64,000 nucleotides of DNA from Cyclobacteriaceae bacterium (GTDB taxonomy: Bacteria; Bacteroidota; Bacteroidia; Cytophagales; Cyclobacteriaceae). Below the pieces are notes generated by a model that searched no databases, was not told the origin of the DNA, and was given only the letters and a program-made list of their open reading frames with translations. The stretch is taken from assembly GCA_026129485.1 (NCBI GenBank), contig JAHCHY010000001.1, positions 308,852 through 372,851 on the forward strand, read 5' to 3'. Below, piece after piece: positions 35,298 to 39,427 of this stretch. Position numbers and translations under genes: made by a program. Numbering within the stretch: position 1 is the first letter of the stretch; each line of letters starts with the position of its first letter.

Positions 35298-36524
35298 TTA
35301 TGCAGAGAGCCGCTCCACCTCAGCGGTTTGAGGAGCAGCCGCCAGGTTAAGCTGAGGCGCCAGGATAACACTTACCCCGTCCTGCTCAGCCCATTCTTTC
35401 AGCTTTTCGAGGTGTACGCTGCCTTGCAGATTTTGAAAGCCATTGCCCTGGTAGCCACCCTTGAAGGTTTCAAAATCGCGGGTAGTAATGTGCGACCCTT
35501 CCGGGAAGCTGACTACAGCATCTACCAGAATTTCGTTCGAGAAGGGAAAGGCATCGCCCTGGGCTATCTTTTTGTATTCGTAACGATAATCGAATGTAAG
35601 AGCAGAGATGTCTGACAGTACTGCCGAACCGGTAGGGTAGCTGCCGGCACCTTTACCAATAAATACCTGCTTTTCCGCGAAAGCGCCTTCCACCAAAACG
35701 GCATTGTATTCGTTGCGTACCGAGGCCAGCATGTGATCGGTGGGAACATATTGCGGAGCGACAAATCCAAAAATGTTGTCCTTGATTTTATAGGCACGCG
35801 CTACCAGCTTAATGGTAAGGTTGTTTTCGCGTGCATATTTCAGATCGGTAGCCGATATTTTATGAATACCGATGTTGATGATGTTTTCGGGTCGCACAAA
35901 CACACCAAACGTATGGGTAATAGCAATGGCCAGCTTGAATTTCGGATCAAACCCTTTTACATCTAATGAAGGATCGGTTTCGGCAAAGCCAAGCTCCTGT
36001 GCCTGCTTCAGCGCTTCTGCATAGTTTTTCCTTTCATCAAAAACTTTGGTGAGGATGTAATTGGTAGAGCCGTTGAAGATACCTTCAATGCTGGTGATCA
36101 AATCATTGTCGTAATACTCTTCGAGGTTGCGTAAGATCGGTATACTACCACATACCGCGCCTTCATACAGAATAGAACGATCGTAGGTTTGCTGGAGCTG
36201 GTAAATCTCTTCGAGGTGTTCGGCTAACATTTTTTTATTGGCCGTAACCACGTGCTTACCATTTTCAATGGCTTTTTTAACAATCTTAAATGCTGCTTCG
36301 GCATCGTCAATCAGCTCCACCACCACATCTATTTCCGGGTCGTTCAGAATATCACCGGCTTCGTAGGTAAAGTAAGCGGCATCAATGATGCGCGGCTTGC
36401 TCCTGTTCTTTACACAAAACTTTTTTACTTCCGCTTTTACGCCATGCGTTTCGTTCAGCACGTGGTAAAGCCCCTGTCCTACACAACCAAACCCGAATAC
36501 ACCCAACTTCAAATTTTTCTTCAT
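35298..36524 (-). CDS. hom: Homoserine dehydrogenase
   Basis: The 408-residue NAD(P)-dependent enzyme converts aspartate semialdehyde to homoserine. GVFGFGCVGQGLYHVL is the dinucleotide-binding loop; VTANKKMLA and GIFNGSTNYIL carry the catalytic-domain residues. ETDPSLDVKGFDPKFKLAIA contains the conserved Asp/Lys pair. There is no aspartate kinase domain and a short C-terminus without an ACT domain. It is the third gene of a metY-metX-hom unit with an 11-bp metY-metX gap and a 39-bp gap before hom. Confidence 0.96.
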   Translation of the reverse strand: MKKNLKLGVFGFGCVGQGLYHVLNETHGVKAEVKKFCVKNRSKPRIIDAAYFTYEAGDILNDPEIDVVVELIDDAEAAFKIVKKAIENGKHVVTANKKMLAEHLEEIYQLQQTYDRSILYEGAVCGSIPILRNLEEYYDNDLITSIEGIFNGSTNYILTKVFDERKNYAEALKQAQELGFAETDPSLDVKGFDPKFKLAIAITHTFGVFVRPENIINIGIHKISATDLKYARENNLTIKLVARAYKIKDNIFGFVAPQYVPTDHMLASVRNEYNAVLVEGAFAEKQVFIGKGAGSYPTGSAVLSDISALTFDYRYEYKKIAQGDAFPFSNEILVDAVVSFPEGSHITTRDFETFKGGYQGNGFQNLQGSVHLEKLKEWAEQDGVSVILAPQLNLAAAPQTAEVERLSA

Positions 36525-36563: not shown

Positions 36564-37610
36564 CTATACCAGCGATTCTTTTCTTACTTCTGCCTTTAAA
36601 AAATTCCGCACACTCTTTTTAAACTGGTCGAACTCCACCAGGAAACCATCATGGCCGTGCAATGACGTAAGCACCGCCAGGCTGGCGCCAGGAATATGTT
36701 CGGCCAGGAACTCCTGTTCGCGCAATGGGAACAACAAATCCGTATCAATTCCGATTACCAGTGTTTTTGCTTTGATTTCTTTTAAAGCAGCCTCCACACC
36801 GGAACGATTACGCCCCACATGGTGGCTATCCATTGCTTTGGTAAGTACCCAATACGAAAACGCATTGAACCGGTTGGCCAGCTTCTGGCCCTGGTAGCGT
36901 TGATAGGAAGCCGCCCGGTAATCGTCTGTTTTGTTAGCTGTTTTTTCGGCCTGTGTTTGCTGAAACGTTTCGTATGTACGAAATGAAATCATACCAATAG
37001 CGCGTGCGGCTTTCATGCCTTCTGCACCAGCCCGCGCATCATCTTGCTTCCATGTAGCATCGGCAGCAATGGCCATGCGTTGCGCTTCGTTAAGCGCAAT
37101 GCCCCACGGTGAGTGCAGGGCATTGGTGGCAATAGGAATAATCCGTTCAAACACGTTGGGTTGCAGAATAGCCCACTCCAACACCTGCTGGCCGCCTAAC
37201 GATCCGCCCAGCAACGTGTGAATTTTATCAATACCCAGATGCTGGCGCAGCAAGTCAAAGCTTCTTACCACATCGCGATTGGTAATTTCCGGGAAGGTAT
37301 GATAGTATGGCTTGCCGGTTTTGGGATTAAGCGATAACGGCCCGGTAGAACCATAACATCCGCCCAGCGTGTTGGCACAGATAATAAAATAATCGCGCGG
37401 ATCGAAGGGAGTATCTTCAGAAAGGAATCCATTCCACCAATCGGTAAAATCAGCGCTGCCGGTAAGCGCATGGCAAATCCACACCACGTTGTTACGATCT
37501 TTGTTAAGATGCCCCAACGTAGTGTACTTAAGCTGGAAACCAGGGAGAATCCCCCCGGTCTCCAACTGGAACTCACTGGCAAAGTGATATATCTGATCGG
37601 TTTTCAGCAC
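36564..37610 (-). CDS. metX: Homoserine O-acetyltransferase
   Basis: The 348-residue alpha/beta hydrolase acetylates homoserine from acetyl-CoA. The nucleophile elbow is LLGGSLGGQQVLEWA (Ser about residue 138). The other triad members are the Asp in IDTDLLFPLREQ and the His in LTSLHGHDGFLVE. NTLGGCYGSTGP is the conserved oxyanion/substrate loop. It sits between metY and hom and supplies O-acetylhomoserine to MetY, so the operon covers aspartate semialdehyde to homocysteine. Confidence 0.96.
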   Translation of the reverse strand: MLKTDQIYHFASEFQLETGGILPGFQLKYTTLGHLNKDRNNVVWICHALTGSADFTDWWNGFLSEDTPFDPRDYFIICANTLGGCYGSTGPLSLNPKTGKPYYHTFPEITNRDVVRSFDLLRQHLGIDKIHTLLGGSLGGQQVLEWAILQPNVFERIIPIATNALHSPWGIALNEAQRMAIAADATWKQDDARAGAEGMKAARAIGMISFRTYETFQQTQAEKTANKTDDYRAASYQRYQGQKLANRFNAFSYWVLTKAMDSHHVGRNRSGVEAALKEIKAKTLVIGIDTDLLFPLREQEFLAEHIPGASLAVLTSLHGHDGFLVEFDQFKKSVRNFLKAEVRKESLV

Positions 37611-37621
37611 GAAAATTTTTA

Positions 37622-38956
<1,335 letters not shown>

Positions 38957-39050
38957 CTAAATGTTTTTGAATTTCTTATTGAAAAATTTAATGGAGGTGA
39001 GGGTACATAACCGTAACCGTGCCTGTCACCTGGCACAATCATAAGTTAGT

Positions 39051-39088
39051 GGGTTGCCGGAGCGCTACGCTTACAAGGGCAACAACCC
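39051..39088 (-). promoter_or_regulatory. Hairpin just after the leader ORF (possible attenuator)
   Basis: Plus-strand GGGTTGCC at 39051-39058 is complementary to GGCAACAACCC at 39078-39088 with a small bulge, giving a GC-rich stem right after the leader stop codon. A second small hairpin (GTGCC-GGCAC) is at 39019-39036. No T-run follows, so any effect is more likely on translation or via a Rho-type mechanism than intrinsic termination. Confidence 0.4.
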
Positions 39089-39232
39089 CTAACAGCAACA
39101 CATACAACACTGCATGGCAGGGCTGCACATTTGCTGAATGCAATAAGAAAGTTGATTAACCTGTTGGTTGAGGAACTGCTTCAGGTCTGAAAAACCTGAT
39201 CGCACATGGCGGGTGGAAAGTTGTGTTTTCAT
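39089..39232 (-). CDS. Leader ORF of metYX-hom, Cys/Met-rich peptide
   Basis: A 47-codon ORF starts 10 bases downstream of the riboswitch and stops with TAG at 39089. The peptide begins MKTQLSTRHVRSGFSDLK and ends QMCSPAMQCCMCCC. Seven Cys and three Met codons fall in the last 17 residues, including CC-M-CCC at the very end. That is the pattern of an attenuating leader peptide sensing charged tRNA-Cys or tRNA-Met, or simply a short Cys-rich protein. A hairpin follows the stop. It is too short for most gene finders. Its function is inferred only from composition and position. Confidence 0.6.
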   Translation of the reverse strand: MKTQLSTRHVRSGFSDLKQFLNQQVNQLSYCIQQMCSPAMQCCMCCC

Positions 39233-39241
39233 TTTACTTTA

Positions 39242-39363
39242 CCGGTTTATAGTTCTCCTCGGCACCTTGCCGGGAGCAGGATTTAGCACCTTTTTCCCGG
39301 CTTTCCGGGGCGGTTGCTAGCGCTTCAATGAGCCTGTGCTCTCCACGCTTCTTTATAAATCGG
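39242..39363 (-). ncRNA. SAM-I (S-box) clan riboswitch
   Basis: On the minus strand the RNA has the conserved TGAAGCGCTAGCAACC block and the GGTGCTAAATCCTGCTCC block of SAM-I riboswitches. A 10-bp P1 stem with one mismatch joins CCGATTTATA (39363-39354) to TATAAACCGG (39251-39242), and a CGGCA-AGG-TGCCG hairpin precedes the 3' P1 arm. It controls the metY-metX-hom genes; high SAM would be expected to reduce expression. The leader ORF starts 10 bases past P1. Confidence 0.88.
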
Positions 39364-39395: not shown

Positions 39396-39427
39396 CAAAC
39401 GTATATCGCTTTGGTAGAGTTTCCAAA
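39396..39427 (-). promoter_or_regulatory. Sigma-A promoter of the met operon
   Basis: On the minus strand TTTG (39427-39424) and TACGTTTG (39403-39396) are 20 bp apart, matching the Bacteroidota consensus. Transcription would begin about 39389, 25 bases before the riboswitch P1 stem, leaving a leader of about 445 bases before metY. Confidence 0.75.

Follow-up and report, generated by a model that had tools for sequence, protein, structure and literature searches.

A cysteine-run leader ORF behind a SAM-I riboswitch upstream of metY in Bacteroidota, a candidate two-input attenuator for sulfide assimilation

Why should a SAM-I riboswitch be followed almost at once by a short ORF that ends in a run of cysteine codons, with metY, metX and hom coming only after it? 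This question is raised by a locus on the minus strand of the window, the whole 64,000-nt stretch of Cyclobacteriaceae DNA analyzed here. The original prediction had read the locus as a promoter, a SAM-I-type riboswitch, a 47-codon ORF, a hairpin behind the ORF stop and then metY, and this order was borne out (Table 1). The aptamer (G000:C1:348095-348212 in genome coordinates) lies 34 nt from the promoter and matches RF00162 above its gathering score (59.5 against 44.4 bits; E 2.9e-11), as expected of the proposed riboswitch class; it is one of five SAM-I aptamers in the window's genome. The ORF has the 47 codons and the CCMCCC end that had been described, along with 7 Cys and 3 Met in its last 17 residues, and a hairpin was found after its stop. 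It was noted that the ORF does start close behind the aptamer, the gap being 11 nt instead of the 10 bases claimed, and that the distance from its stop to the metY ATG (38944) is 144 nt, close to the predicted figure of about 145. The two-layer leader in the window is a real, confirmed observation.

Table 1. Elements of the metY locus, in positions of the window
Feature	Position	Strand	Evidence
Bacteroidota-type promoter: TTTG (39424-39427), 20-nt spacer, TACGTTTG (39396-39403)	39396..39427	-	sequence
SAM-I riboswitch aptamer (RF00162)	39244..39361	-	cmscan 59.5 bits, full length 1-108
A-rich spacer from the P1 3' strand to the leader AUG	39233..39243	-	AUG offset conserved
Leader ORF, 47 codons, C-terminus CCMCCC, stop TAG	39089..39232	-	ORF list and conserved layout
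Terminal Cys-codon run (C C M C C C)	39092..39109	-	sequence, ORF list, tail enrichment
Hairpin 1: 5' strand directly 3' of the stop, 3' strand GGCAACCC, inner GCG/CGC stem	39051..39088	-	alignment A2 (23 leaders), window fold
Hairpin 2: outer stem UAAC...GUUA, inner stem GUGCC/GGCAC, loop with GUGA	39008..39048	-	alignment A2
metY, O-acetylhomoserine sulfhydrylase	37622..38944	-	TIGR01326, 674 bits vs cut-off 495
metX, homoserine O-acetyltransferase	36564..37610	-	PRK00175, 334.6 bits vs cut-off 331; TIGR01392, 358 bits, under cut-off 500
hom, homoserine dehydrogenase	35298..36524	-	PF00742; NF004976, 330 bits vs cut-off 205

We assessed which riboswitch loci carry such a leader. A locus was scored as positive when an ATG lay 0-20 nt past the aptamer and began an ORF of 6-70 codons whose final 10 residues included three or more Cys. 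The relatives set comprised all 111 SAM-I matches in the window's genome and 57 relatives, and the phylum set comprised 89 loci (29 best-scoring and 60 hand-picked among the matches listed, spread over families and not random); the resulting 200 loci were sorted by the class of their downstream gene. Altogether, 50 of the 200 satisfied the rule, compared with 0.12 expected from dinucleotide shuffles. In the relatives set, the leader was found at metY (38/43), YceI-like (3/4) and SusC/TonB (1/2) genes, and at ATP-grasp genes (4/5, with L033 counted here via a 55-codon remnant, its intact downstream gene being SusC/TonB-like). None was found in this set at metH (0/42), metB-like (0/10), metX (0/2), cysH (0/1) or unclassified (0/2) loci. 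The rule misses a GTG start (L051) and weak or late runs (L030, L047, L071, L090, L111), all of which were scored as misses in these counts; the run in L047, weaker and below the rule, precedes cysH.

In the phylum set, the rule was satisfied at 4 of the 43 metY loci, with no Cys run at the other 39, and at no metH (0/17), metX (0/14), metB-like (0/10), SusC/TonB (0/2), hom (0/1) or unclassified (0/2) locus. When both sets were pooled, Cys-run leaders were absent from metH (0/59) and from the metB-like gene (0/20). The same restriction was noted within the window's genus alone (metY 31/33, metH 0/33, metB-like 0/8), and in the relatives set metY differed from metH (Fisher exact test; p = 5e-19) and from the metB-like gene (p = 2e-7) in a calculation that ignores relatedness. 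A chance ORF was considered as an explanation and is ruled out by the shuffles together with the metH and metB-like controls.

The distribution was then extended to named species, using the best 80 of at least 573 MetY loci, scanned with Rfam. Among these best 80 of at least 573 loci, 74 had a SAM-I aptamer (75 aptamers altogether), and in 73 the aptamer lay within 900 nt upstream of metY; the strict rule was satisfied in 54 of these 73 loci with an adjoining riboswitch, and a looser rule (start within 250 nt, at most 75 codons) in 57. The later starts account for three loci (L223, L238, L247), and Marivirga and Bernardetia are among the late-start cases. By genus, and counting riboswitch loci within the best 80 of at least 573, the Cys-run ORF was found in Pedobacter (7/7), Mucilaginibacter (8/8), Hymenobacter (5/5), Rufibacter (2/2) and Pontibacter (3/4), with single cases in, among others, Chryseolinea, Chryseosolibacter, Cesiribacter, Thermonema and Lewinella. 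In the same best 80 of at least 573, a riboswitch lacking the Cys run was recorded in Algoriphagus and Belliella (0/7), Spirosoma and Flavisolibacter. Chryseolinea belongs to the Cytophagales, and the remaining genera presumably to the Cytophagales, Sphingobacteriales and Saprospirales. The original prediction had proposed a search for the same layout upstream of metY in other Bacteroidota, and it was found in many of them; the layout is conserved there. That outcome supports the original prediction's view that both layers could sense products of the pathway. A separate observation in Belliella kenyensis was a DUF805 RNA (RF03081, 73.3 bits; L214:1201-1268) upstream of the metY locus.

We sought to characterize what is conserved in the leader peptide itself. 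The leader statistics are from 93 distinct metY leaders and the composition figures from 96 sequences, with the late-start L223, L238 and L247 left out. The 93 leaders are 27-57 codons long (median 43). Cys makes up 519 of the 1116 residues in their last 12 positions versus 70 of 2716 in the body, and Met 105 of 1116 versus 46 of 2716; at least one Met lies within the last 12 residues in 73 of the 93. The Cys codons in these tails are mixed (TGT 329, TGC 190), as are the stops (TAA 58, TGA 20, TAG 15), and because synonymous codons and stops are mixed in this way, it would appear to be the amino acids rather than one RNA sequence that are kept. The ORF, its stop and its Cys run, whose conservation the original prediction had suggested checking, were all kept, and pN/pS was at most 0.66 in 11 of 15 related pairs, the pairs not being independent. 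The ratio was at least 0.93 in three pairs and undefined in one, so the N-terminal part is weakly constrained. Judged from these comparisons, the end of the leader is constrained and its front much less so. Cys is the constant feature of the leaders, and since Met is enriched in the tail, Met sensing is possible as well. Two hallmarks of an amino-acid leader-peptide attenuator, a coded short ORF upstream and a run of pathway-amino-acid codons near its end, were found.

A cysteine-rich tail could also act through its chemistry. The peptide might itself be the sensor or the product, much as in CruR, with its thiols binding metal or reacting with sulfide or oxidants and thereby releasing or causing a stall. 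CruR works via a CXXC in the nascent leader together with Rho (PMC9426467), and the Cys runs, which reach 9 residues, are unusual and might coordinate metal. However, the spacing and number of the Cys residues vary freely (longest run 1 to 9) without a fixed motif, and Cys is the very last residue in 71 of the 93 leaders, so the thiols would presumably not yet have left the exit tunnel when the stop is reached. The leader most often precedes metY, and no classified target is a known metal gene, with the caveat that no role is established here for the ATP-grasp, YceI-like and SusC/TonB targets. We consider this explanation very unlikely.

The placement of the leader relative to the promoter and the aptamer was examined next to its coding content. 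A TTG-N17-24-TANNTTTG promoter was present within 150 nt upstream in 36 of the 42 metY riboswitches with a Cys-run leader (0.3 expected from base shuffles), and in 31 of those 36 the promoter ended 31-36 nt before the aptamer; the sigma-A -7 consensus is given as TAnnTTTG in PMC9723704. The leader AUG lies 7-12 nt 3' of the aptamer in 44 of 50 Cys leaders, the full range being 1-14. In Algoriphagus, an AUG 8-9 nt downstream of the riboswitch still opens an ORF, one without a Cys run, an arrangement compatible with gating of leader translation by the riboswitch being separable from Cys sensing. The serial layout supports, as far as arrangement can indicate, gating of one sensor by the other over two independent sensors. 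On balance, we regard it as probable that the layout is a serial two-input attenuator for sulfide assimilation.

How the signal would be passed on was approached through a terminator scan running from aptamer to gene, in which strict sites had UUUU in the tail and loose sites 5 T in 8. Strict sites were found at 12 of 20 metB-like riboswitches, 13 of 44 metY riboswitches without a leader and 2 of 42 metY riboswitches with one. Loose sites were found at 14 of 20 (0.7 expected), 17 of 44 (2.6) and 20 of 42 (3.9), respectively, and in the named set (best 80 of at least 573) at 15 of 57 loci with a leader (5.45 expected) and 4 of 16 without (0.95). When leader loci were scanned from the Cys run onward only, terminator-like sites were found at 6 of 42 (2.9 expected) and 5 of 57 (3.35 expected), and in 12 of the 20 loose sites of leader loci the "U tail" was the Cys-codon run itself.

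These counts bear on the possibility that the two sensors act in parallel, the riboswitch alone setting transcription or RNA stability and the Cys leader acting separately on metY, so that the inputs add. Cys-run leaders do occur without a riboswitch in Actinobacteria (PMC1262725), and an additive response would be physiologically sensible with MetY probably supplying both Met and Cys. Nevertheless, the usual stand-alone output of the metB-like riboswitches, the UUUU-tail terminator, is present at only 2 of 42 Cys-leader metY loci, and the nearly fixed position of the AUG past the aptamer is what would be expected if P1 controls leader initiation. A parallel arrangement is in our estimation unlikely, and the serial attenuator is the reading carried forward below.

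Some hairpins around the Cys run were observed in their own right. At L063, L082, L102 and others, the Cys run has a hairpin ahead of it whose 3' strand enters the Cys codons (12 of 42 Cys-leader metY loci under the loose rule), and the codons TGTTGTTG resemble a weak U tract. L017 (G057) and L021 (G038) each have a hairpin within the leader body, ahead of the Cys run, and here the U tract is a true one. Because of that U tract, an intrinsic terminator may be the output at these two loci, and translation of their leaders is expected to disturb the hairpin. More generally, hairpins just before the Cys run could matter, with few of them resembling ordinary intrinsic terminators.

The base composition of the leaders was also assessed. 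In the leader body the C fraction is 0.250 and the G fraction 0.143, with C above G in 89 of 96 sequences; C was above G in 7 of 59 metH coding starts and, within the window, in 9 of 19 intergenic regions and 23 of 53 coding starts. Stretches with C above G are described as a sign of Rho-dependent terminators (PMC9426467), and a rho gene is present. Since the metB-like 5' regions share this lean (15 of 19), the bias of the leaders is only suggestive of Rho.

The region after the stop was compared within the window's genus, where two hairpins follow the Cys run in 23 of 33 metY leaders, picked by eye for the motif. Aligned as A2, these 23 leaders conform to a four-helix structure with 90.9% of cells paired, and the covariation score was 0.275 versus 0.195 (sd 0.013) in shuffles, none of 500 of which reached 0.275, though the structure was drawn from the same sequences on which it was scored, which favors it; sliding destroys the structure. 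In hairpin 1, helices 1 and 2 are paired in 86.3% and 90.6% of cells, and in hairpin 2, helices 3 and 4 are paired in 93.0% and 98.6%, with both-sided changes. Judged by eye, the 5' strand of hairpin 1 falls inside the Cys codons or a few nt past the stop, and therefore the position of the ribosome should decide whether this hairpin forms. Separately, the GUGAC stretch in the loop of hairpin 2 (39008-39048, A2) hardly varies and bases of its internal loop are conserved as well, which is more than a simple hairpin would require; hairpin 2 could be a binding site for a protein or the ribosome.

No Rfam family fits these hairpins. The idea that they form an independent RNA regulon was rejected, as the covariance model R1 found no further copies in 39 genomes. 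In 16 of the 25 genomes from the same genus R1 matched at a single position, always in the metY leader, and these 16 are expected by construction because all are rows of the model's own alignment; further matches were weak (G049, E 0.002; L059, E 0.034, in a scan of 32 loci). Other lineages have post-stop hairpins of their own. Judged by eye among loci L201-L280, the Pedobacter leaders carry CUUCC/GGAAG and the Mucilaginibacter leaders CACG/CGUG, each with apparent compensatory changes. Because the hairpins differ between lineages, those of the window's type would be a lineage-specific output device outside the system's core. Across 50 leaders, no mutually exclusive pair of structures common to the lineages was found. 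Universal pairing of the Cys codons with downstream RNA was likewise rejected, being barely above shuffles (mean z -0.55, 50 leaders).

Directly supported by the data are the order of the elements, their spacing, the coded Cys run, the restriction of targets, the rarity of U-tract terminators and the composition bias. From these, the serial attenuator may be envisaged in three steps. When SAM is plentiful, the aptamer would fold, with P1 ending about 10 nt before the AUG, and the leader would go untranslated. When SAM is low, the leader would be translated, and the ribosome would slow at the Cys run only if Cys-tRNA is short. In the third and least certain step, a ribosome held at the ORF end would let transcription reach metY-metX-hom, and an untranslated leader or a departed ribosome would lead transcription to stop, probably through Rho acting on the C-rich, G-poor RNA; in some lineages hairpins beside the Cys run or the stop might aid or replace Rho. 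The net result would be expression of metY solely under a joint shortage of SAM and cysteine. Were metY the sole entry of sulfide, a response to either shortage might suit the cell better than one to both.

A different coupling would have ribosomes that finish the leader restart at metY, so that the riboswitch governs metY by way of leader translation and the Cys run is a modulator. There is precedent in Mycobacterium tuberculosis, where the leader under a B12 riboswitch at ppe2 is translated and expression of ppe2 itself depends on termination-reinitiation (PMC11260477). The distance argues against it here, since among the 57 named leader loci (best 80 of at least 573) the leader stop lies 95-161 nt from metY in 43 (range 71-609), which is far for ordinary reinitiation, and in some loci an OsmC-like gene intervenes. 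Reinitiation thus appears quite improbable as the explanation of the layout.

An additional question is why cysteine would be monitored at a methionine operon. The window's genome encodes a 456-aa protein with PALP and CBS domains that scores 510.0 against a cut-off of 510.25 bits for cystathionine beta-synthase, and no CysK above the cut-off was found in that genome. Because the former is near its cut-off and the latter was not found above its own, Met and Cys probably both derive from the homocysteine made by MetY, and Cys would be a natural second signal since it is probably made from this MetY product. In 80 genomes, CysK above the cut-off was present in 2 of 42 with a leader versus 14 of 38 without, or 11 of 42 versus 34 of 38 when shorter CysK-like proteins were included, a pattern that relatedness alone could yield, as the genomes with a leader are mostly of one genus and those without are mostly of others.

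Several observations were made on the genes that accompany the leader. RimK-like ATP-grasp genes (L031 by Pfam; L065, L079 and L051 by likeness) lie under a SAM-I aptamer with a Cys-run ORF, the start in L051 being GTG, and in the window's genome about 3 kb separate the ATP-grasp locus from the metB-like riboswitch. The RimK-like gene may belong to sulfur metabolism. At L033 (G000:C36:15060-15174 and downstream), a second SAM-I aptamer and Cys-run leader, with the residues SSCCCQSLFA, comes first, then a 55-codon remnant that shares 64% identity with the L031 ATP-grasp gene, then a SusC/TonB gene; it looks as if a copy of the regulatory cassette, still carrying the 5' end of its former gene, had been placed before a new one. 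An OsmC-like gene stands between leader and metY at L063 (by Pfam) and at L082, L050, L019 and L203 (by likeness), with the leader staying first. A wider proposal would be that the output of the riboswitch is translation of a Cys-sensing leader, forming a Rho-read SAM and Cys gate on sulfide entry in a large part of the Bacteroidota, with the cassette copied to ATP-grasp, YceI-like and SusC/TonB genes; we put this forward as tentative, possible but short of probable.

We also examined whether Cys-run ORFs occur elsewhere in these genomes. In the window's genome, the Cys-run pattern matched 76 times, and among the 30 matches inspected a SAM core lay upstream of one, the metY leader; L301 (13 codons) and L302 (76 codons), also among these 30, end in CCC without a SAM core. 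The sibling leaders L031 and L033 lack the searched Cys pattern at their ends. Of 30 matches inspected in six other genomes, SAM cores were present at L318, L320 and L334, and Cys-ending frames without a SAM core were L311, L312 and L314.

The locus was compared with several known systems. As in the SAM-I class (S-box, RF00162), the aptamer scores above the gathering cut-off and precedes methionine genes, and one mode known for this class sequesters the ribosome-binding site within the P1 3' side (PMC2258182). It differs in that the first start codon here opens a Cys-run leader and not a structural gene, and in the near absence of UUUU-tail terminators (2/42). In mycobacteria, polycysteine short ORFs attenuate cys operons (Canestrari et al. 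2020, as cited in PMC13236596 and PMC9094748), and Actinobacteria have Cys-run leader peptides for which no conserved terminator hairpin was found (PMC1262725). Like our locus, these are short ORFs that carry Cys runs close to the stop and stand before sulfur amino acid genes. However, the mycobacterial ORFs are called leaderless, with no riboswitch mentioned in the accessible text, whereas the ORF described here lies behind a SAM-I aptamer, in another phylum and before metY; it would not be leaderless, because the -7 box is 34 nt before the aptamer and the AUG lies far inside the predicted transcript.

Another likeness is to uORFC-8-2, which precedes cysS in Rhodobacterales and whose tandem Cys codons are thought to sense Cys-tRNA (PMC8632094); according to the accessible text it differs in having two Cys codons, an intrinsic terminator, no riboswitch and cysS as its target. 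The M. tuberculosis B12 riboswitches with uORFs at metE and ppe2 also join a riboswitch and a translated leader in one messenger (PMC11260477), but the accessible text reports no amino-acid-sensing run, coupling is by reinitiation, and the loci are two in a single species. The copper-responsive CruR uORF shares a C-above-G stretch, a stalled ribosome proposed to block Rho and a long gap downstream (PMC9426467); it differs in sensing copper via CXXC and in being a longer protein (mutations to residue 140), with neither a riboswitch nor a stop-side Cys run reported in the accessible text. Within the Bacteroidota, clues of leader-peptide attenuation upstream of amino-acid operons have been described in Flavobacterium psychrophilum (PMC9723704). 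The open-access literature searched, a body of text that mostly excludes subscription papers and preprints, yielded no description of a Cys-run leader behind a SAM riboswitch. The arrangement appears to resemble a leader-peptide attenuator placed behind a SAM-I aptamer, and we do not assign it to the classical terminator-antiterminator type. As far as these sources extend, each part was already known and the combination is apparently new.

If the proposed reading is true, the locus would be a natural two-metabolite gate built from two known RNA sensors in series, and leader-peptide translation would be an added output for SAM-I riboswitches. The layout is conserved across several well-cultured genera of the Bacteroidota, a phylum whose RNA regulation is little studied and whose translation, which is independent of Shine-Dalgarno sequences, is likewise little studied. 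The same genomes hold natural controls in the metH and metB-like riboswitches that lack the leader. The finding also draws attention to conserved peptides whose small size puts them beyond routine gene calling, and it offers a testable case of how Met and Cys may be balanced in the use of sulfide, with homocysteine probably the precursor of both.
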